DNA of 64,000 nucleotides from the NCBI GenBank assembly GCA_025361625.1, contig JANYKL010000090.1, positions 1-64,000 of the forward strand, written 5' to 3'. Every line of letters begins with the position of its first letter. Positions within the stretch are counted from its first letter, which is position 1. Positions 4,647 to 61,190 of the stretch are shown piece by piece. Under the pieces are notes generated by a model, which worked only from the letters and a program-made list of their open reading frames with translations, had not been told where the DNA came from and did not search any database. The position numbers and the translations under genes are program-made. This stretch comes from Acidobacteriaceae bacterium. Lineage in GTDB: Bacteria; Acidobacteriota; Terriglobia; Terriglobales; Acidobacteriaceae.

Positions 4647-4764
4647 CTTGTGCGGATCAAAAATGCCAGTGGTAAACTATTTGGGCGGTCTGCATCACAC
4701 CGTAAGCGTTTGACATCCACACGCCGGAGAGATGGCCGAGAGGCTGAAGGCGGCGGTTTGCTAA
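4647..4764 (+). repeat. 118-bp direct repeat, left copy: tRNA-Ser upstream region plus truncated tRNA-Ser 5' half (4726-4764)
   Basis: Aligned by eye to 6569-6686: 3 mismatches in 118 bp, all within 6 bp. Identity ends exactly at the anticodon loop (ggtttgctaa). Confidence 0.95.
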
Positions 4765-4951: not shown

Positions 4952-4980
4952 GTTGTTAGTGTAATGGCGATATTACGACA
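4952..4980 (+). repeat. 29-bp recombinase-core-like motif, copy A
   Basis: GTTGTTAGTGTAATGGCGATATTACGACA; reverse strand reads TGTCGTAAT-ATCGCC-ATTACACTA, imperfect inverted arms around 6 bp. Confidence 0.7.
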
Positions 4981-4981
4981 G

Positions 4982-5530
4982 CTACTTGACGACCGATCCA
5001 TCCAGCACCGTTAACTCATCGTCGCTCAACTTGTTATGGATGGCGCGGAGCTTGCTCCCGTCTCTTAGCGAGAAATACGTGTAGGTCGCAGGTCCGTCGC
5101 CACCACTAAATTTAGTGACAAGATAAACATCACCCGTCACGGGTTCTCCGCGTTCTCCTCGCTCCTGAAACGTCCATCTTACAGCCTCACCGTTCATTGC
5201 CTCGACGGTGACTGTGGCATTCGGTGGCCCCTCAACGTCGGGTGCCCGGTCCATGAAAAGAGTCTCACGAAGCACCAGCGCCTCGCTACGAGTGCCGTGT
5301 TCTGTCAAAAGCTCGACGACAGTAAATCGCCTATTCCGCGTGAGGAAATGGGGTTCGGTACCCTTCACCTTGATCTCCAATGTTGAGACGGCGGAATTGC
5401 GATCCTTTGGGAGACTCACTCCAAGTGTGCCCTCTAATAGAACGAACTCAGCGATGAGAGCGACTGCTAGGATCGCAGCGAAGACAAGAACCGCCTTCCT
5501 TGCCGTCACAAACTGTGACATGTCATTCAT
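4982..5530 (-). CDS. Hypothetical protein with one N-terminal TM segment (182 aa)
   Basis: Start MNDMSQFVTARKAVLVFAAILAVALIAEFVLLEG, then a soluble domain; stop lies 1 nt from motif A. Confidence 0.6.
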   Translation of the reverse strand: MNDMSQFVTARKAVLVFAAILAVALIAEFVLLEGTLGVSLPKDRNSAVSTLEIKVKGTEPHFLTRNRRFTVVELLTEHGTRSEALVLRETLFMDRAPDVEGPPNATVTVEAMNGEAVRWTFQERGERGEPVTGDVYLVTKFSGGDGPATYTYFSLRDGSKLRAIHNKLSDDELTVLDGSVVK

Positions 5531-5640
5531 CTCCTAGTAGCTGAGGCTTCTGGCCGTTGGACTGATTCTTGCGCTTACAGGGGATTGCGGGAAGGTGACT
5601 ATTGTCATCAGGCGTTGGCACTAATTGAGAACGGCGGCTC

Positions 5641-5669
5641 GTCGTTAGTGAAATGGCGATTTTTCAACA
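5641..5669 (+). repeat. 29-bp recombinase-core-like motif, copy C
   Basis: GTCGTTAGTGAAATGGCGATTTTTCAACA, 24/29 identical to copy A. Confidence 0.7.
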
Positions 5670-5683
5670 GTTAGTCTTGCGCC

Positions 5684-6151
5684 TCATTCTTCGTGATCCA
5701 GAGGTCTTCCATCGGGGCCGATCTGCACCTCCGACCTTTTTCCATCAGTTACGACTTGTGCTTCGTATGCTACAAGCTTGCCGTGTTTGGTAAGGGACTC
5801 GACCTTCACGAGTTTGCCGTTCGCGATCTTGGCTTGCAGTCCATCCCTCACGGCAGGAGAGAGCGAATCCACAACCACTTGTTCTTCCACCTCCACGATC
5901 TGACCGTTGGCGTCCATCAGGACATCTTTGCTGTGGCCATTGACCACGAACTCCGCCTCAAAGAAGGTTTGTCCGTGCTCTTTTTCCTCTGAAAAGCCGC
6001 GAATGGTCGCACCCTGACTCTGCGCTGCAACAGCTTTTTCAAGTGCGGGCGGTAGGTACGAACGTTTGATCTTCTTTTCCTGTGTCCAAGCCGGAACGGT
6101 GAGAAACAGGCTGGCAACCGCTGCAAGTCCAACCACTCGTGAATTGCTCAT
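5684..6151 (-). CDS. Secreted PepSY-like hypothetical protein
   Basis: Start at 6151 preceded by GAGGAAA gives MSNSRVVGLAAVASLFLTVPAWTQEKK signal peptide; repeated small beta-rich units (FEAEFVVNGHSKDVLMDANGQIVEVEE / YEAQVVTDGKRSEVQIGPDGRPL). Confidence 0.65.
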   Translation of the reverse strand: MSNSRVVGLAAVASLFLTVPAWTQEKKIKRSYLPPALEKAVAAQSQGATIRGFSEEKEHGQTFFEAEFVVNGHSKDVLMDANGQIVEVEEQVVVDSLSPAVRDGLQAKIANGKLVKVESLTKHGKLVAYEAQVVTDGKRSEVQIGPDGRPLDHEE

Positions 6152-6278
6152 GGGTTTTTCCTCTGAAACAAGAATACGCTGTTCAATGTGAAGACATCTA
6201 GAAGCGTTGGAATTTCTCGCCAACGCACGAGACTGCTGGTGCGTAATGGCCCGACTGGAACAGTCGCTGACGGGTAGG

Positions 6279-6307
6279 TGTCGAAAACAGGCGATTACAC
6301 TAACGAC
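6279..6307 (-). repeat. 29-bp recombinase-core-like motif, copy B (inverted)
   Basis: Reverse complement GTCGTTAGTGTAATCGCCTGTTTTCGACA; 22/29 vs A, 23/29 vs C. Confidence 0.7.
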
Positions 6308-6328
6308 CAGCCGTTTTGGCGAAAATTC

Positions 6329-6568
6329 CTAGGCCGAGAAAGGCTCGATCCCCAAGGACGCCAAGAATTGGTTGTCGGCCTTTATTCTTTCGGCCCTTGT
6401 CATAGCGTCGACGATTGAAGGCTTCTTGTCCATCGTCTCTACGGTCCCAGTTTCGTCGCACTCGCCATTCTTTATGGACTCAAGGAGCTTCAACAAATAC
6501 TGGCGCTCGTCCTCGCGAATGGACTTCCCCCAGTCTGCCAGGGTTTTCTTTGCTTGATCGTTTGTCAT
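6329..6568 (-). CDS. Hypothetical small protein (79 aa)
   Basis: MTNDQAKKTLADWGKSIREDERQYLLKLLESI...; start codon directly abuts the right 118-bp repeat. Confidence 0.5.
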   Translation of the reverse strand: MTNDQAKKTLADWGKSIREDERQYLLKLLESIKNGECDETGTVETMDKKPSIVDAMTRAERIKADNQFLASLGIEPFSA

Positions 6569-6686
6569 CTTGTGCGGATCAAAAATGCCAGTGGTAAACT
6601 AATGGGACGGTCTGCATCACACCGTAAGCGTTTGACATCCACACGCCGGAGAGATGGCCGAGAGGCTGAAGGCGGCGGTTTGCTAA
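6569..6686 (+). repeat. 118-bp direct repeat, right copy (upstream region and 5' half of the intact tRNA-Ser)
   Basis: See 4647-4764. Confidence 0.95.
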
Positions 6687-6741
6687 ACCGTTATAGGGTC
6701 TAACAACTCTATCGAGGGTTCGAATCCCTCTCTCTCCGCCA
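6648..6741 (+). tRNA. tRNA-Ser(GCT)
   Basis: Acceptor ggagaga/tctctcc, anticodon arm cggttt-GCT-aaaccg, long variable arm, T arm gagggttcgaatccctc, encoded CCA. Confidence 0.96.
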
Positions 6742-7033
6742 GTTTCAATGATTTGAAGTGGTTCCCTCCCTAGGCCCCTCCGGTTTAGAACCCCCCTGTA
6801 AAGTTTTTCAGGCCGGCCCGTCGCCTGCTAAGGCCAGAACAGAGAATTTTTCAATCAAGAGTCTCTAACGCTGACGCGAGCAATCGAGGCGGGTTAGTTC
6901 CTCAAACGCTCCAGAAAGTCGCTGACTTTGGCGAGAAGATGTGCGGTTTATCTAATTACAAAGCAACATTTTTCAGGCTCGTTGCAGCTTCATTATTGAC
7001 TGCTCCGCCCTTTTTCCTAGATGATTGTGAGAC

Positions 7034-7237
7034 ATGGACGTCGAGCGCATCATTGGTGACATCGAGCAGATACAGGAAATGTTCGAAGCGCCGGATATCA
7101 GGCCACTCACCGCAAGCGACATTTCTGCGGCGAATCGGCGGCACGATGAGAAGCTCGCCCAAAGCCCCTGGTTTCGACTCTGGCAAAGTTACGGACTTTG
7201 CTGCCGACCCAACGCCGAAGCGCGGCTTGAAGTCTAA
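7034..7237 (+). CDS. Small hypothetical protein (67 aa)
   Basis: MDVERIIGDIEQIQEMFEAPDIRPLTASDISAANRRHDEKLAQSPWFRLWQSYGLCCR: protein-like composition; competes with longer overlapping ORFs in other frames. Confidence 0.5.
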   Translation: MDVERIIGDIEQIQEMFEAPDIRPLTASDISAANRRHDEKLAQSPWFRLWQSYGLCCRPNAEARLEV

Positions 7238-7360
7238 TGCCATGCTTAGCATCCAGCGCTTAAATTGACATCTCACCGGCGATGCGCCTGCATCGTGAGG
7301 AAGACTGTTCCGTTCAACTTGGACTGGCCGGTCCGGCAAAATCTATCGGGACATGGTTGC

Positions 7361-8167
7361 TTATTGGCGAAGCACGCTGAAACGGCTGATCGAGTATCCG
7401 AGAGCTGCTCCGAAAAAGACATCGGAAGTGAAATGAGCGGCCAGGGACACGCGTGAACACCCTACCAGCGCTGCCGCTCCATAGGCAACGTACGGCACCC
7501 ACTTGTGATTTCCATAGCGACGGGCGGCGACAGTTGCGATCGAAAACGCAGCGATCGTATGACCCGAGGGGAATCCGCCATTCGCCCGCAGCACGGACCC
7601 TTTGCTGTCGAAAAATGAGTCATAGAGATTTCCGTTAGGCGCGAAACCCACGGGGCGGGCCCGTTTCGTGGCATCCTTCAAAACCGTAGTTACGATCTCG
7701 GCGTCCGCTACCGCTTCCGCCGCCAAAAGAGCTGTGTGCTGCGCCTTCTCGTCTTTGCGAAAGAGCCCGACCGCGTAAAACGATGCGGGAGCAACGATCG
7801 TTGCAATGCTGGTAGTTTTGGCGCTAAAAACTCTATTAAAGCTGTGATAAGACGTCGTGCGGCGGAAATAGTTTCCTTCAATCGGATCGAGTGCGAAGAT
7901 TCCGGCCGTAGTGCCGAGAACGACGGCGGTCGGCAGCAGAACGTGACCATGCAACAGTCTCACTGGAAAGGTCCAAATTTGTTTTTGATCGCTAATAATA
8001 TTTGGGAACAGCAGCTTTACTGAAACTGGGCGATCGAATTGGGGCGCCCCGCGGGAAGTCCGGGTTTCGGCGTTCGGCGGAGCGGAAGCAGGCGGCGGTT
8101 GCTCTTGCGCGGAGAGAAGAAACGGAAGAACACTGCAGGCAAAGAGCAGCGCGACCAAAAGCCTCAT
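7361..8167 (-). CDS. PAP2 superfamily phosphatase, secreted
   Basis: KRARP...FPSGHTIAAFS...CSRVSLAAHFTSDVFFGAALG: the three PAP2 motifs; signal peptide. Confidence 0.9.
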   Translation of the reverse strand: MRLLVALLFACSVLPFLLSAQEQPPPASAPPNAETRTSRGAPQFDRPVSVKLLFPNIISDQKQIWTFPVRLLHGHVLLPTAVVLGTTAGIFALDPIEGNYFRRTTSYHSFNRVFSAKTTSIATIVAPASFYAVGLFRKDEKAQHTALLAAEAVADAEIVTTVLKDATKRARPVGFAPNGNLYDSFFDSKGSVLRANGGFPSGHTIAAFSIATVAARRYGNHKWVPYVAYGAAALVGCSRVSLAAHFTSDVFFGAALGYSISRFSVLRQ

Positions 8168-8529
8168 GAATCATCCCCTACAGCGTAATTGGCGGAGCTT
8201 TATTCGCGGAAAAAGTAGACGCTTAGGGTGGGCCGCGCGTTGCCTGTTAGGTCGACTGTCGGCGAGGGTGCTAGTGCTAACGGGCCGCTGCGGGCAACGA
8301 GAAAAATAGCTTTGGTCACGATGTTTGCCGTTCCGCGCGTCTCGATCTTCAAGGTTCGGTCTGCGGATCAACGAGGCATACAGGTTTTACTGTATACAGC
8401 GAAACTGCTCGGGACGGCGATAATAATCGACGCTCATCCCCGTTCCGCGGAAGGCTCCGTGGCAGGAGTAGCGGTCCGAAGTGTATCAGCTGTGGAAAAT
8501 AAATAAATGACCGGCAGCCGGGTTTAACT

Positions 8530-11500
8530 ATGCGTGTGCTCATAGTGGATGACCATGAAGTGGTTCGACGTGGCGTGCGTTCCCTGCTCCAATCTCATTG
8601 CGAAGTATGTGGCGAAGCCGTTGACGGCCAAGACGCGATAGAAAAGGCCCGGCAGCTCAAACCTGACGTGGTCGTTATGGATGTCAGCATGCCAAATTTG
8701 AATGGCCTGGAGGCGACTCCGCTCATCCGCAACATTCTCCCAGATTGCGAAATCCTGATTCTCAGTCAGCACGAGTCTGCACAGATGGTTCGGCAAGCCT
8801 TTAAAGCGGGGGCTCGGGGTTACGTGGTGAAATCGTCTGCAGCGAGAGACTTGCCGGCTGCCTTAGAAACGATCAGTAAACATGAATCGTTTTTTGATCC
8901 GGCAGTCCTGGGAATGGCTGACCGGTCCGGCAATCTTGACGCACACGAAATCCTGCAAAGAAGCGTTGCGCTGGAGCGCGCTTTGCGGGAAAGCGAAGAA
9001 CTCTACAGGTCAACGTTTGAACTGACGGCCGTAGGGGTCGCGCACGTAAATCCCGATGGACGTTGGTTACGCGTCAACAAGAAGCTTTGCGAAATTTTGG
9101 GTTACAGCGAAACCGAGCTTATGAAGCTCACCTTTCAAAACATTACCCATCCCGAGGATCTTACCCGCGATCTGGAGGAATTTGAAAAGGTCAAAGCCGG
9201 AGTTTCGGATAGGTACTCCATCGAAAAACGATATCTCCGAAAGGATGGCACTACGATCTGGATCAACCTGGCGGTCTCCGGGGTTCGGGATTCCAGCGGC
9301 AAGCTCAAGCACTTTATTTCGGTCGTCGAAGACATCAATGAACGCCGAATTTTAGAGCGAGTCGGAGCGACGCTTGCGTCGGAGTTAGACCTGAAAAAGG
9401 TGGTACAAGTCGCAACCGATGCTGGCAGGGAATTGAGTGGAGCTGGATTTGGCGCCTTCTTCTACAACGTGCTCGACGACAAAGGCGAAAGTTACATGTT
9501 GTATACCTTGTCCGGAGCGGCCCCAGAAGACTTTTCGAAGTTCCCCATGCCTCGAAATACACGTATTTTTGCTCCCACCTTCACCGGGGATCGTACTTTG
9601 CGTCTGGACGACGTAACAAAAGATCATCGGTACGGGAAAAATCCTCCCTATCACGGTATGCCGCCGGGGCATCTGCCGGTGCGAAGCTATCTTGCCGTGC
9701 CCGTGAAGTCTCGCACTGGCGAGGTTCTTGGTGGATTGTTTTATGGGCATCCTGAAGCGGGCGTGTTCACCGAGCGCGCCGAGCAACTTGTCGAGGGGCT
9801 AGCGAAACACGCCGCAATAGCTATTGACAACGCTCGACTTTATGAACGCGCTACTTCGACGCGCACAGAAGCTGACGCAAGTGCCGAGCGTCTCCGCCTT
9901 GCGCAACAGGTCGCAAACGTCGGCACATTCGAATGGAATATCAAGACGGGTGTGAGCCGATGGACGCCAGAATTGGAGAAAATACACGGCTTGCCCCCGG
10001 GGGGTTTCGCCGGGACAAAGCCCGCATGGGAACAGTTGGTTCATCCCGATGATAGAGAGAAAGCGTTGAGACGGGTTGAGCTCGCGATGAAAGAGGGCAC
10101 ATTCGAAGGCGAGTGGCGCGTGGTTTGGCCGGACGGTTCGGTTCACTGGCTGTTGGGCAGAGGCTCAGTGCTGAAAGATGAAACGGGCGCCCCGGAACGT
10201 CTCGTGGGCGTGAACATCGACGTTACAGAAAGAAAAGGATTAGAAGAGGCGCTCCACGAGGAACAATCTAAGCTTGCTCTTGCGCTGGAATCCTCACGCA
10301 CCGCCATTTTCGACTGGGATGTCGTCCAGAATCGAGGCAGCTGGAATCCTCAGATGGCCGCCATCTACGACTTTAGTCCTGCAGCGGACTACATCACGGC
10401 GATGGAGTGGAGAGCATTATTTCATCCCGATGACGCTACCAGGCTGGCCGGAGAAGCGCACCAGATATTAACAGACAGAAAACGAGAGAAGTTCCATTTT
10501 GAGTTTCGCAATGTTCGTGAGGGCGGCGAAATCAGATGGATTCTCTCGCATGGACGAATCGTGCGAGATGCAAATGGCAATGCTTTACGCATGATCGGCA
10601 CGCATACCGACATCACTGATCAGAAGCGGGTGGAGCAGAACCTCCAACGAAGGCAAGCAGAACTGAACGAAGCCCAGCGGCTTGCGAAGATTGGCAGTTG
10701 GAGGTGGACACCTGAAACAGGCACCGTCATCTGGTCCGAAGAACTGTACCGAATCGCAGGGCGGGATTTAAATTCTCGTTCATTCAGTTATCACGATCAC
10801 TCGACCATTTACACCCGCGATAGTTGGACAAGACTGCGAGCGGCTGTCGACCAAGCTCTAAAGAAGCAAACACCGTATTCCCTTGAATTGGAACTTCTTC
10901 GCCCAGATGGAACTAAGAGGTGGGTTATCACTAATGGCGAAGCAGAATGCGATGGCCGCGGAGACGTCATCGCGCTTCGAGGAACTGTCCAGGACATCAC
11001 GGATCGGAAACAAATCGAGCGAGAACTCCGTGACAGCGAGGAACGAACCCGCTTTAGTCTTGAGGCTGCGAACGTTGGTACTTGGGAGTGGAACGTAAAG
11101 ACCGGCGAAATTCATTGGTCGAGCAACATGGAAGCTGTGCACGGCCAGGCTGCAGGTTCGTTTGGCTCGTCGTTTGAGAGCTTTCTAGAAGGTGTGTTTA
11201 CCGAAGACCGGGAAAAAGTGAAGGAGCAGATACAACTTGCACTTTCTGGTGATGGCAAATACCACGTCGAATACAGGCAGTATCGTTCCGATGGAAGCCT
11301 GGGGTGGATGGAAAGCACCGGGACAGTTGTATTTGATGCCGATGGCCAACCGATGCGGATGTTTGGTATTTGCTCGAATGTGACCGAACGCAAGGACGCG
11401 GAAGGGGCATTGAAAGACAGCGAATCGCGCCTGCGTGCCGCGTTCGGACAAAGCTACTCATTTTTTGTTTTGCTCGAAGCCGATGGCACCATCGTCGAGG

Positions 11501-12870
11501 TCAATCGCGCAGCCATGGAGGCCGCAGGTAGTACTCGCGAGCAGTTGATTGGTCGAAAGTTTTGGGAGCCTTGGTGGTCACCTCTGCCGGAGGAAGTTCA
11601 GGTTCTCAGGGACGCGATTGCAAAAGCGGCGGGGGGCACGCCGGTCCGCGATGAATGCTGTTTCTGTCTCTCCGACGGAACTCGGCGGTTCGCAGATCGT
11701 AGTCTCAGCCCTGTGTTAGACGATAGAGGAAATGTATCCATAATCGTTGCGACAGCATTGGATATCACGGAGCGAAAGCAAGCTGAAAAGGCGTTGCGCG
11801 AAAGCGAACAGCGTCTTCGGGTGGTTACCGATGCGACGCCCATCATGGTCTGGATGTCTGGCACAGACAAACTTTGTTATTACTTTAATAAAAGTTGGTT
11901 GGATTTCGTCGGGCGCACTCTCGAACAAGAATCGGGTAATGGCTGGGCGGAAAATGTGCATCCAGACGATTTTGATCGCTGCCTCCAAATTTACGTAAGC
12001 TCCTTTGAGGCTCGTCTTTCTTTCAAGATGGAGTACCGTATGCGGCATCACACGGGTCAATACCGCTGGATCATTGATTGCGGGGTGCCACGATATACGC
12101 CGGATGGAACGTTTGAAGGATATGTGGGCGGCTGTCTCGACATGCACGACCAAAAAGAGGCGGCGGAGAAGGTTCGGATCGCCGACGAAGCAATGCGCCT
12201 GATGAAGATACAGGATCAAGAACGGCGGCATATCGCCCGCGAATTGCACGACAGTGCTGGGCAAACGTTGGCGGTTCTAGGCATGAGCCTTGCGAGATTG
12301 GTTCAAAGGACCGATGCGGTCTCCCCTGAGTTGGCGAAAACAGGAAAAGAGATCGAAGAGATTGTTCAACAGCTGAGCCGGGAGATACGCACCACCTCTT
12401 ACCTATTGCATCCACCACTGTTAGACGAGTGTGGGCTAGCTTCTACGCTGAAAGCCTACGTCCAGGGCATTGTTGAACGCAGCGGACTGTTGATCGACGT
12501 CAGCATCCCAGATGATCTCGGAAGACTTCCCCCTGACATGGAGCTTGCGATCTTTCGCATCGTGCAGGAATGTTTAACAAATATTCACCGTCACTCTGGA
12601 AGCAAGACGGCCAGTATTCAAGTTGATCGCCGAGCCGGAAGCATTTGTGTCGAAGTTCGTGATGGGGGAAAGGGAATATCCCCCGAACGCTTGAACGAGA
12701 TTCAGTCGGGGGGCGCAGGGGTGGGAATCAGGGGAATAAGGGAACGATTACGTCATCTGCATGCCGAAATGCGTATTGAATCCAACAGCTCAGGCACCTG
12801 CATTTCGGCCGACATTCCCCTGCCGAAGGATGCACAGTTGACCGATATCCAACCGCTACAGGAAGTGTAG
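8530..12870 (+). CDS. Hybrid sensor histidine kinase: NarL-type receiver, seven PAS-like domains, GAF, HisKA_3/HATPase
   Basis: [48 protein letters not shown]; repeated PAS/PAC ends (ITERK, ITDQK, ITDRK); C-terminal [19 protein letters not shown] and [14 protein letters not shown] / [14 protein letters not shown]. Confidence 0.93.
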
Positions 12871-13118
12871 AAGGCGCGTCACGTCTGACACTGTCACAAT
12901 GATGGAACATCGCAATCGGGCGGCCGCCACTTATTTCAAGCAGCTTTCTGGGCCGGCAACTTTTTTCCTCCTTCGGTGTTGTAAACAGTGAATCTTCGCG
13001 TTTGCTTGATCCGGCGGACGTGAAGTTCGAGGTATTTGTCTTACTGTCAGAAATCCGGCTGTCAGAAATTCCGGCTCCGATACTCGCAGCAGTTGCGAGC
13101 CAGAAAAGAGAAACACTG

Positions 13119-14306
13119 ATGCGTATCAATCGTATTGTTTCCTGCTTTTTAGTTGCTTTTGTGATGATGGTGGCTCTCAGCGGTGCATCGTCTGCACAAA
13201 TTGGCGTCGGAATTTCAGTCCGCATCGGCCCGCCACCACTGCCAGTTTATGTTCAACCGATGTGCCCGGGAGACGGGTATATCTGGACGCCCGGCTACTG
13301 GGCATGGAGCGACGACGATGGCTACTATTGGGTGCCTGGCACATGGGTGCGCGGTCCCATGGGGATGCTATGGACTCCTGGCTATTGGGGTTGGAATAAC
13401 GGCCTGTATGCGTGGAATGACGGCTACTGGGGACCCCACATCGGCTTTTATGGCGGCATCAATTATGGCTTTGGCTACACCGGTGTAGGTTTCTTCGGTG
13501 GATATTGGCAGGGCGACCGGTTTTTCTACAATCGGAGCGTGACCAACGTCAACGTCACCAATATCACCAATGTCTACAACAAGACGGTCATCAACAACAA
13601 CAACACCCATGTCAGCTTCAGCGGCGGCCACGGCGGAGTCCGCGCTCGGCCTACTCGGGAACAGCAGGCTGCGGCCCATGAACGTCATACGCCTCCGATC
13701 GGTCCTCAGGTTCAGCACATGCAAGCCGCTAGAGGCAATCGTCAGCTGCTGGCTTCTGTGAATCATGGGCGTCCGGCAGTCGCAGCCACCGCCAGACCCG
13801 GAGACTTTAGCCACGCGGTACCAGCCAGGGCTGCGGGCGGAGCTTACCATCCACCAAAGATGTCGGCGAGAGAGGCAGCTGCTAATCGTGGTGGAAGCTC
13901 TAATCGCACTAGCCCCAACCGCACTACAGGGGCGACCAACAACCGATCTACCTCATCGAATCGAGGCCCAGCGACGCAGTATCGAAATAATTCTCGGCCA
14001 GAAGTCTCGCGTGGGACTTCATCGTCAAATCACTCCACTGAAAGTAGGACGAACCGAGGGGAGAACAGGACGAACGCGAACGCTCCCGTCCGACAGAATG
14101 ATCGTTCGTCGAGTTCGACCCGCCGAGAGAGTGCGCCGCCGCCGCATGAGTCTCGCCAACCGCAACGTGAAGCTGCGCCCCCAAGACGGGAGAGTCCGCC
14201 CCCGCAAAGACAGGCTGCCCCGCCACGCAGGGAAAGCCCGCCGCCTCCTCAGCGATCCGATCCGAGGGGCGAACGTAAGCCTCCCACCGGGGGGCGCCAA
14301 GGCTAG
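13119..14306 (+). CDS. YXWGXW/WXXGXW-repeat secreted protein with low-complexity basic/proline-rich C-terminus
   Basis: Signal MRINRIVSCFLVAFVMMVALSGASSAQ; WTPGYWAW, WVPGTWV, WTPGYWGW, WNDGYWG repeats; start preferred over 13002. Confidence 0.88.
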   Translation: MRINRIVSCFLVAFVMMVALSGASSAQIGVGISVRIGPPPLPVYVQPMCPGDGYIWTPGYWAWSDDDGYYWVPGTWVRGPMGMLWTPGYWGWNNGLYAWNDGYWGPHIGFYGGINYGFGYTGVGFFGGYWQGDRFFYNRSVTNVNVTNITNVYNKTVINNNNTHVSFSGGHGGVRARPTREQQAAAHERHTPPIGPQVQHMQAARGNRQLLASVNHGRPAVAATARPGDFSHAVPARAAGGAYHPPKMSAREAAANRGGSSNRTSPNRTTGATNNRSTSSNRGPATQYRNNSRPEVSRGTSSSNHSTESRTNRGENRTNANAPVRQNDRSSSSTRRESAPPPHESRQPQREAAPPRRESPPPQRQAAPPRRESPPPPQRSDPRGERKPPTGGRQG

Positions 14307-14328
14307 GGATACAGAGTGAATCCACTTC

Positions 14329-14362
14329 CGCGCCAGCCTGCTGGCAATTTCAGGCTGGCGCG
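14329..14362 (+). terminator. Strong hairpin downstream of the YXWGXW gene
   Basis: CGCGCCAGCCTG - 10 nt loop - CAGGCTGGCGCG, perfect 12-bp stem; no T-tract. Confidence 0.55.
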
Positions 14363-14775
14363 ATCGCGCATCGCGTCATGACTTCCCGGAATGCGAAGCT
14401 CCGGCTTGTGCTTCGATCTGCGAGGCACTATGCGATTGCACTATGCGATTGCATTAAAGAGACAGGCGTCAGTCCCCTTGCAGTCAGGGGTGTTCTATTT
14501 TTTTCGAACCCGCCAAGATACCGCTTGCCCAGCCGAATGAGCTAGACGTAGATCGTCTTGCCGCTCATGGCTATCTCGAACCGCGGTGAGGAAGAACGCA
14601 TCCATCATTGGAGCGTTCATTGTGATTTTCATTACCGAATCTTGGCAGGCCTTGGTTTCCCTCAGCATTGACAACACGCAGTGATCGACAATATCTTAGG
14701 CGGACAAATTCGTCGTCGGCATACGGATCACGTTCACTCATTCCGCAGTACTCTCAGTCGCCCGAAGGAGGCGTC

Positions 14776-15948
14776 ATGCACTTATCTGATTTTATTTCCG
14801 GGAATATGGAGTCCATTGTTCAGGCTTGGGAGGACTTTGCGCGGACCATCGAGCCTCCTGCGCTTACCATGGATAGAACAGCGCTAAGAAATCACGCATC
14901 CGCCATGCTGAGAGTGATCGCCAAGGATCTCGCTGCCGGGCAAACGGCGTTGGAGCAGTCTGAAAAATCGAAGGGGCGCGGCCTTCGCGAAGATGATGAC
15001 ACCGCAGCTGAGTCACATGCTGATGCACGTCTCCTTTCGGGGTACACAATTGAGCAAATTGTGTCAGAATTCCGCGCATTAAGGGCAAGTGTGCTGCGAC
15101 TTTGGTCAAATTCTGCCGAAAAACGACAAGATATCAATCCGGTGGACATCATCCGCTTCAATGAAGCGATCGATCAGGCACTCGCGGAATCGGTAGGGCG
15201 CTATGCCCGGGCGGTCAAGAAATCGCAGAACTTGTTTCTGTCTATTCTTGGCCACGATTTGCGTCCCTCGCTGCAAGATTCCGTCACCGGTGCAAGCCTA
15301 ATCATGAGCACTACTTATATTGCCAGCAAACACAATGAGTTGGCCACGCGGATCTTTACCAGCGAACAGAGGATGCTTAAGCTGGTCGACAACTTGCTCG
15401 ATTTTACGCTCACCCAACTAGGCTCGGGTCTTCCCATCAAGGTGAAGAAGACAGACATTGGCAACCTTTGTTTGGGTGCAATTGAAGAGTTGCGCACGAA
15501 GTATCCCGAACGCACGATTGAGTTTAGCGCGAAGGGCAACAGAGAGGGATTCTGGGATGGAGCCAGAATCGCGCAGGTCTTTTACAACTTAGTCTGTAAC
15601 GCGTTACAAAACGGTGCCCAGGCGGAGCCTGTAACCGTGCATTTAGATTGCGGCTCGGACGAGGTTGTCGCGAGAATAAAAAACAAAGGCGCCCCGATCG
15701 ATCGAGAAAGAATGCAAACCATTTTTGAACCCGTCCTGCGCTTTACAGAGGAAGACTCGGCTGGTCACGCAAACGAGACAAGTCTTGGTATCGGCCTTTA
15801 CATCACGCGCGAAATCGTGCAAGCCCACCAGGGGATCATCGACGTGGATTCGTCAACCGGCGAGGGCACGACTTTCACAGTCCATTTACCGCGCACTACG
15901 AAAGTTGAAATGGGCCGTAAAGAAACTGTTGCCCACGCCACACTGTAG
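14776..15948 (+). CDS. Sensor histidine kinase with RsbRD-like N-terminal domain
   Basis: ATG at 14776 after aaggaggcgtc; LFLSILGHDLRPSLQ H-box, NLVCNALQNGA N-box, LGIGLYITREIVQAHQG G-box. Confidence 0.88.
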   Translation: MHLSDFISGNMESIVQAWEDFARTIEPPALTMDRTALRNHASAMLRVIAKDLAAGQTALEQSEKSKGRGLREDDDTAAESHADARLLSGYTIEQIVSEFRALRASVLRLWSNSAEKRQDINPVDIIRFNEAIDQALAESVGRYARAVKKSQNLFLSILGHDLRPSLQDSVTGASLIMSTTYIASKHNELATRIFTSEQRMLKLVDNLLDFTLTQLGSGLPIKVKKTDIGNLCLGAIEELRTKYPERTIEFSAKGNREGFWDGARIAQVFYNLVCNALQNGAQAEPVTVHLDCGSDEVVARIKNKGAPIDRERMQTIFEPVLRFTEEDSAGHANETSLGIGLYITREIVQAHQGIIDVDSSTGEGTTFTVHLPRTTKVEMGRKETVAHATL

Positions 15949-16053
15949 GGTTCCAGACTACGGACAGCCTTTTTTTCGTTCATAAATTTACAAGCCGCTA
16001 GCTTCATGCGGACGATGATGCTCACGAAATTCTCCGGTCGCATGGATGCCGGA

Positions 16054-17361
16054 TTATGAAAGATTTCGCTGCAACGTTGCGCGATCCAGTTCATGCTCCC
16101 AACGAGCGATCACGAGTGTGGCCACTCCGTTCCCAACCATATTGATCAAGGCGCGGAACATGCTCATAAAACGATCGATGCCCAGAATGAGCGCCATTCC
16201 AGCCACAGGGATGCTGGGAACAACCATCAGCGTGCCAACCAGGGCGATAAACGCGGCCCCGGACACTCCGCTCGCGCCCTTCGAAGTTAGAATCGCCACG
16301 CCGAGAATGGTCAACTGCTGCGACAGGCTCAGATGCGTGTTGGTAGCTTGCGCTACGAAGATTGCGGCCAGCGTCATATAAATGCTGGTTCCGTCCGTAT
16401 TAAAGGTATAGCCGGTCGGCACAACTAGACCGACCAGTGGCTTGGAGCAGCCGAGTTTTTCAAGCTTTGCCATTAAGCTTGGCAATGCCGGCTCTGAGGA
16501 ACTTGTCGCCAGCACAAGCAGCATTTCCTCCTTGATATACAGGAGAAACTTAAGAATTCCGAAGCCGGCCGCCCTTGCGATTCCTCCCATGACGATAAGT
16601 ACAAAGAGTGTTCCCGTGATGTAGAAAGTGGCGATGAGTTTCGCCAAGGGACCGAGCGCACTGATGCCATATTTTCCAACCGTGAAGGCCATGGCGCCAA
16701 ACGCGCCGATTGGCGCGAACTTCATGAGAATGTTAATGATTTCGAAAACCAGGTGAGTCAACACTTCGAAAAAGTCGACCAGCGGTCTACAGTGGGGACC
16801 TGCAGCCGACAACGCAAATCCAAACAGCACCGAAACGAATAGGACTTCAAGAATGTCGCCTTTGGCGAATGCGTCCACTACTGTCGTCGGGATAATGTGG
16901 ATTACAAAATCGGACACGGACTGCGCTTTCGCTTGCCCCGCATAGGAGGCGACTTCCCGGGTATCGAGAGTAGCCGGATCCGCATTGAAGCCCTTGCCGG
17001 TTGGGACCAGATTTCCGACGATGAGCCCGACAACGAGCGCCAACGTCGACACAATCTCGAAGTAAATTAGCGCTTTACCGCCGACTCTCCCGACCTTCCC
17101 CATGTCCTCCATCCCGGCGATGCCAGTGACCACGGTGCAGAAGATCATGAGAGTGATAATCATCGAGATCAGCCGAATGAAAGCATCGCCGAGAGGCTTC
17201 ATGGCAATCGCTCTCCCTGGACTGAAATGGCCGACTACAACAGCCAGAACCATCGCGATTGACACTTGTACCCACAGGGTTGCGTACCACGCTTGCTTCT
17301 TGGGAACAGGAGTGCCGATCTCTGGCAACGGCGAGATCGGAGCGGTCAGACTGTCGGTCAA
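16054..17361 (-). CDS. Dicarboxylate/amino acid:cation symporter (DAACS, DctA/GltP-like)
   Basis: [65 protein letters not shown] motifs. Confidence 0.95.
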
Positions 17362-61093: not shown

Positions 61094-61190
61094 TGGCGGA
61101 AGCGAGTGGGAGTCGAACCCACCGGCAACATCGAAGATGCCGCCCGCCGGTTTTGAAGACCGGGACGATCACCGGACCGCATGCGCTTCC
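61094..61190 (-). tRNA. selC: tRNA-Sec(TCA), selenocysteine
   Basis: Minus strand GGAAGCGCATGCGGTCCGGTGATCGTCCCGGTCTTCAAAACCGGCGGGCGGCATCTTCGATGTTGCCGGTGGGTTCGACTCCCACTCGCTTCCGCCA; TCA anticodon, 6-bp D stem, long variable arm, encoded CCA. Confidence 0.95.

Follow-up and report, generated by a model that had tools for sequence, protein, structure and literature searches.

Paired recombinase-core-like sites mark a probable gene-cassette system of one Acidobacteriota family

The 29-bp motifs found between positions 4952 and 6307 of the window (the whole 64,000-nucleotide stretch of acidobacterial DNA analyzed here) are quite likely the points of crossover in a gene-cassette system that is confined to one lineage and worked by a Xer-type enzyme, and the window would on this reading carry two single-gene cassettes inside a tRNA-Ser scar. 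A sequence-only reading had proposed that core sites like those of tyrosine recombinases form a cassette-type array at this place, and our comparison of loci and homology breakpoints supports the main part of that proposal. Most known gene-cassette arrays belong to integrons, to which the dif modules of Acinetobacter have more recently been added; the system described here resembles both integrons and Xer (dif) modules but matches the defining sequences of neither, and no earlier description of such a system was found in the searchable literature, a scope that excludes subscription journals and preprints. If this interpretation is correct, a chromosomal cassette system of one soil Acidobacteria family would mean that cassette logic arose or was re-specified again, with exchange visible between sister species. 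The core sites would then help to locate accessory genes in these hard-to-culture bacteria, and they would provide a natural pair of non-cross-reacting sites, which is what recombinase-mediated cassette exchange uses.

The three 29-mers are present at 4952 to 4980, 5641 to 5669 and, inverted, 6279 to 6307, each with no mismatch to the consensus that the sequence-only reading had given, and this consensus has no match in 100 dinucleotide shuffles of the window. Scored with a position-weight matrix trained on other loci only, copies A, B, and C reach 49.1, 44.7, and 43.5 bits, and no other position of the window exceeds -2.7. The three copies are thus real, but one half-site had been missed: a matrix scan of the window places a fourth, C-type site on the minus strand at 5596 to 5628, facing copy B across 12 bp; it scores 18.9 bits, where the 99th percentile of the background, taking the best of 63 positions, is -8.8. 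Partner half-sites for cores A and C were sought with the matrix, and none rose above background. The description of arms around a 6-bp center also held in part; the motif is two-armed with a center of that length, but the arms are longer than the ~9 bp proposed and 29 bp is too short, the conserved site spanning ~33 bp with an inner arm of 14 bp (GTNGTTRGTGWAAT), the 6-bp center, and an outer arm of 13 bp (KTTWCRNCA, then RYYR). Two core types are distinguished by their centers, GGCGAT in the G type (copies A and B of the window) and CGCCTG in the C type (copy C), and a frequent arrangement of cores is a head-to-head pair of opposite types with a short loop between them.

Written out with these types, the window array reads [G 4952-4984] ORF1 [C 5596-5628, loop, G 5641-5673] ORF2 [C 6275-6307] (Table 1). 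Each copy had been assigned to the 3' end of one of three ORFs, which is correct for A with ORF1 and for B with ORF2 but not for C with ORF3, core C lying upstream of ORF2; ORF3 is on the inner-arm side of core C and is therefore outside the array and not its third unit. The stop codon of ORF1 lies 1 bp from the 29-mer of core A, and in 24 of 210 strong cores from all loci an ORF stop falls precisely 1 bp short of the 29-mer's outer end, with stops within -4 to +2 bp at 13% of cores versus 3.5% of random positions. Family searches gave no Pfam or NCBIfam match for ORF1 and a single weak match for ORF2, to PepSY_like and below the cut-off; an internal ATG near 6151 of ORF2 opens a signal-peptide-like N terminus. 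Genome-wide scans, which were done by pattern and not by matrix, located the 29-mer pattern at nine places in the window's own genome at ≤3 mismatches and the reversed pattern at none. A second array is present in this genome on contig C31, in the order [C] 162 aa [G/C] 272 aa [G/C] 333 aa [G], and one of its genes has a partial relative, 56% identical, that adjoins a G core in another genus.

Table 1. Coordinates of the array, its surroundings, and related features (window positions unless a genome is named)
Feature	Position	Strand	Description and source
Left 118-bp direct repeat	4647..4764	+	tRNA-Ser upstream region and tRNA 5' half (truncated copy); left end of island remnant; 97% identical to 6569-6686
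Core A, G-type	4952..4984	+	Inner arm 4952-4965, center GGCGAT 4966-4971, outer arm 4972-4984; exact pattern match, 49.1 bits; unpaired half-site at array left end, no partner in matrix scan
ORF1, 182 aa	4982..5530	-	Cargo of cassette 1; ORF list
C-type half-site, partner of core B	5596..5628	-	Inner arm 5615-5628, center CGCCTG 5609-5614, outer arm 5596-5608
12-bp loop of linker module	5629..5640		Between the two inner arms; matrix scan and site anatomy
Core B, G-type	5641..5673	+	Inner arm 5641-5654, center GGCGAT 5655-5660, outer arm 5661-5673; exact pattern match and matrix
ORF2, 179 aa from TTG start	5684..6223	-	Cargo of cassette 2; ORF list
Core C, C-type	6275..6307	-	Inner arm 6294-6307, center CGCCTG 6288-6293, outer arm 6275-6287; pattern match and matrix; unpaired half-site at array right end, no partner in matrix scan
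ORF3, 79 aa	6329..6568	-	Outside cassette array; ORF list and position on chromosomal (inner-arm) side of core C
Right 118-bp repeat	6569..6686	+	Runs into intact tRNA-Ser; repeat search
tRNA-Ser (anticodon GCT), intact	6648..6741	+	Right edge of island remnant; ARAGORN; Rfam RF00005, 58.4 bits
~11-kb prophage-like element at tRNA-Ser(GCT), L265 (G015:C12:737000-756000)	5337-16470 of the locus		Bounded by repeated tRNA 5' half
Probable chromosomal dif	G000:C181:4529-4550 and equivalents in genus		CCGATAA-CAGGTA-TTATGTNAA; usually one per genome

The arrangement seen in the window recurs across the family loci that we collected. These loci, selected for carrying cores, total 0.97 Mb and yield 247 cores that score ≥20 bits; their reversed sequence yields none. 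Centers have the same orientation in 175 of 177 neighboring pairs (within 3.5 kb), facing pairs are heterotypic (C with G) in 66 of 67 cases and homotypic in 1, and 37 close pairs join opposite types. Intervals from core to core range from 0.09 to 4.5 kb, mostly 0.3 to 2 kb, and over 61 cassettes the largest ORF occupies 83% of the cassette length, reading towards the G core in 43 (binomial p 0.002). The cargo is diverse: the 58 proteins scanned matched 44 Pfam families. A single C core at the start, as predicted, is seen in 27 of 44 arrays and the predicted single G core at the end in 30 of 44; junctions with one recognizable core comprise 24 C-C and 19 G-G neighbors, and the array-end rule is best described as a tendency given these proportions and the many eroded or single-core junctions.

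Comparison of loci indicates that what lies between the cores changes while the sites mark the boundaries, and the proposal that the copies flank variable single genes was borne out by content swaps at orthologous loci as well as by the array statistics. The swapped orthologous loci all derive from one species pair, G072 and G127, which are two species of a single genus in the same family as the window but of a genus other than the window's. In one comparison (L164/L172) flanks of 86 to 87% identity run through the inner arm and center at both ends and enclose two cassettes in one genome versus a single unrelated cassette in the other; in another (L162/L171) a 97.4% identical flank ends right after GGCGAT, and in a third (L168/L174) homology restarts inside the core. 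At L161/L170 a stretch of 1.75 kb with 99.3% identity lies on the cassette side of the core, and the flanks on the other side differ. Individual cassettes also recur, one of them in three arrays within G015, another in both G015 and a different species, and a further one in G000 and G005, and whole pair sites turn up more than once with flanks that differ. In total, 15 homology breakpoints coincide with cores in both sequences, at C and at G cores alike, and all 15 match like type with like; alignments end within 20 bp of a core in 15% of cases, compared to 1.1% for random positions. From these sequence comparisons, cassettes appear to have been swapped between genomes and between chromosomal places, with their ends marked exactly by the paired sites.

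We propose that exchange is site specific and takes place at the core centers, C with C and G with G only. The comparison assigns inner arms to the chromosome or a short linker and outer arms to the gene cassettes, and the positions of the breakpoints place the crossover at the edge between center and outer arm. Each cassette carries one G and one C core, one per end and facing each other, and on one strand all centers of an array point the same way. Since the two centers differ when read from inner to outer arm, C × C and G × G would be compatible and C × G incompatible, and recombination of like with like only would mean that a gene module enters or leaves in company with one linker (inner arm, loop, inner arm), the alternative being its replacement by another module. 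Such joint gain and loss of module and linker would account for the half-sites at array ends, for the alternation [G] gene [C loop G] gene [C], and for a missing empty site; the empty palindromic form (inner arm, GGCG, inner arm) has 0 occurrences at ≤2 mismatches in 251 family genomes. Simple attB × attP insertion, or free excision across C and G cores, predicts this empty site and was rejected on its absence from those genomes. The inner arms of a pair covary, with the observed score reached by 0 of 500 shuffles, and the outer arms show no covariation (440 of 500 shuffles), as would follow if a linker and both its inner arms formed a single unit while outer arms arrived with independent cassettes.

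Linkers of larger size may also exist. A ~210-bp repeat in G015 (L062, contig C27; 666-875, 2951-3168, and 7575-7787), 89% identical among its copies, ends in a C-core inner arm and center and has different genes beyond each of its three copies, and it appears to be an enlarged linker module that was itself copied.

Several known kinds of element share features with these arrays. Integron cassettes each recombine at one point, the R' core of attC, and integron arrays end in a complete attC; here breakpoints fall at both cores of a pair, C and G, and half-sites stand at many array ends, including those of the window. A divergent integron or integron-less array (CALIN), in which the paired cores are attC sites and IntI acts from elsewhere, has several features in its favor: the cassettes are mostly single genes of hypothetical or diverse function, they read mostly in one direction (the 43 of 61 largest ORFs that share a core type), the pairs form imperfect palindromes of 60 to 115 bp with arms and centers on both sides and a variable loop, and genuine attC sites are known from Acidobacteria (PMC8352920). 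The core sites that define attC, however, are RYYYAAC and GTTRRRY (PMC3053210), and either one occurs at the outer boxes in 0 of 38 pairs; no match to TIGR02249, the integron integrase, exceeds the cut-off in 24 genomes of the genus, and the folding energy of the window pair is close to that of shuffled sequences (z of -0.96 and -1.31). Recombination of a folded single strand, as in attC, may still apply, since the inner arms covary even though the window pair folds weakly. We regard the integron reading as very improbable and for the most part refuted, and the earlier claim that the array is distinct from classical integrons stands.

Of lower probability still are two readings in which the cores are repeats of another origin. 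REP/REPIN-like palindromes moved by a RAYT (Y1_Tnp) with no link to gene content, which the sequence-only reading had named as the case that would speak against it, are likewise short, headed by GTNG at the 5' end, and placed as inverted pairs just after stops, with halves capable of forming hairpins, and complete pair sites that recur with different flanks would suit them; however, a core is present within 1.5 kb at only 2 of 17 Y1_Tnp loci (four genomes), one of the two being a gene fragment, the breakpoints fall at the center, gene content varies between cores that bound exchanged genes, and centers keep a uniform orientation along arrays. The REP/RAYT explanation was rejected because Y1_Tnp genes are not associated with the cores. 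The least probable of the alternatives is that small transposons or MITE-like carriers, served by a DDE transposase in trans, have the cores as their terminal inverted repeats; inverted cores do flank each gene, making the unit look bounded by such repeats, but homology at orthologous loci extends past the inner arm and center and is lost at the outer arm instead of at the repeat end, and content is replaced, not inserted or excised. A dispersed repeat of 150 to 250 bp, separate from the cores, lies near a Y1_Tnp (RAYT-like) gene fragment in G000 (L016, contig C52; 5519-6982 and 10534-10690) and is probably that genome's own REP family.

The logic of the arrays is shared with the dif modules of Acinetobacter, where modules of C and D kinds alternate, are gained in pairs, and exchange at identical spacers (PMC13141974). 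As in those pdif/dif modules (PMC13141974), two different arms surround a 6-bp spacer, modules of two alternating kinds are bounded by inverted sites (66 heterotypic facing pairs versus 1), and single modules are replaced between relatives, with all 15 breakpoints at cores joining the same type. The acidobacterial arrays differ from the plasmid pdif modules in being chromosomal and restricted to one Acidobacteriota family, in having only two fixed centers (GGCGAT and CGCCTG) in uniform orientation, and in a second module kind that is usually shrunk to a linker of a few to ~40 bp plus arms. The possibility that they are dif modules proper, with cores that are diverged dif sites, host XerCD as the enzyme, and one module kind reduced to a linker, seems to us rather unlikely. 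The cores are unlike the host dif of the genus, CCGATAA-CAGGTA-TTATGTNAA (Table 1), and TTATGT occurs in 0 of 247; the core as a diverged dif was accordingly rejected on its arms, which do not match. Slightly better placed, though still doubtful, is a separate platform with heterotypic C/G sites and like-with-like arrays, in which the recombinase is not the dif-acting XerCD or has been re-specified from it.

The proposed exchange is most probably the work of a tyrosine recombinase of the Xer type that acts in trans. The leading candidate is the host XerC-XerD pair, an assignment that taken by itself falls somewhat short of an even chance and that is weakened by the dissimilarity of cores and host dif. 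An XerC-XerD tandem is conserved in the genomes examined, and in G127, which is rich in cores and 91% complete, XerC and XerD are the only proteins with a PF00589 match. An array abuts the xerC-xerD pair in G015, but this is the only one of 18 tandem loci scanned where that is so, and a second has a core ~2 kb away. No integrase type accompanies the arrays, and a dedicated array-adjacent integrase was rejected, the three array-linked integrases having only general family membership in common. At the G015 locus (L057, contig C1) the array end adjoins the 3' end of the tandem recombinase pair at 7491-7581, and the recombinase gene runs into a C-type half-site of low score (2.4 bits).

The distribution of the cores suggests that the cassette system is restricted to one Acidobacteriota family. 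Cores are present at ≤1 mismatch in 32 of 251 sampled genomes of the family, from 18 of 80 genera, and at ≤2 mismatches in 21 of 24 genomes of the window's genus; most of the genomes used look like MAGs in many contigs. Outside the family none of ~350 genomes in a phylum sample has a core at ≤1 mismatch. That sample comprises 396 genomes including ~44 further members of the family, among which only the window's own genome matched. A search for the paired-site pattern among 85,488 species gave, as named matches, three Acidobacteriota MAGs of the class Terriglobia (subdivision 1).

The array of the window lies inside a 1.9-kb segment that is bracketed by the 118-bp duplication and contains no integrase. 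The earlier observation of tRNA repeats is correct, the two 118-bp copies being 97% identical, but their assignment to the cassette mechanism is not; they seem to be the scar of a separate integration at tRNA-Ser(GCT), with the array lying between them. In relatives rmuC is not adjacent to tRNA-Ser, so that no orthologous empty window locus is readable, and the window array has no match in plasmid records. Mobility of the two window cassettes is inferred from their architecture, since ORF1 and ORF2 have no homologues among the fetched loci. An ~11-kb element of G015, bordered like the window array by repeated tRNA-Ser(GCT) sequence (Table 1), contains integrase genes, a terminase-like ORF (so labeled from reading its translation), and one G...C cassette near its far end; integrative elements may thus spread cassettes, which we take as a lead only. 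Elsewhere in the window, ARAGORN called a tRNA-SeC (anticodon TCA) on the minus strand at 61094-61190.
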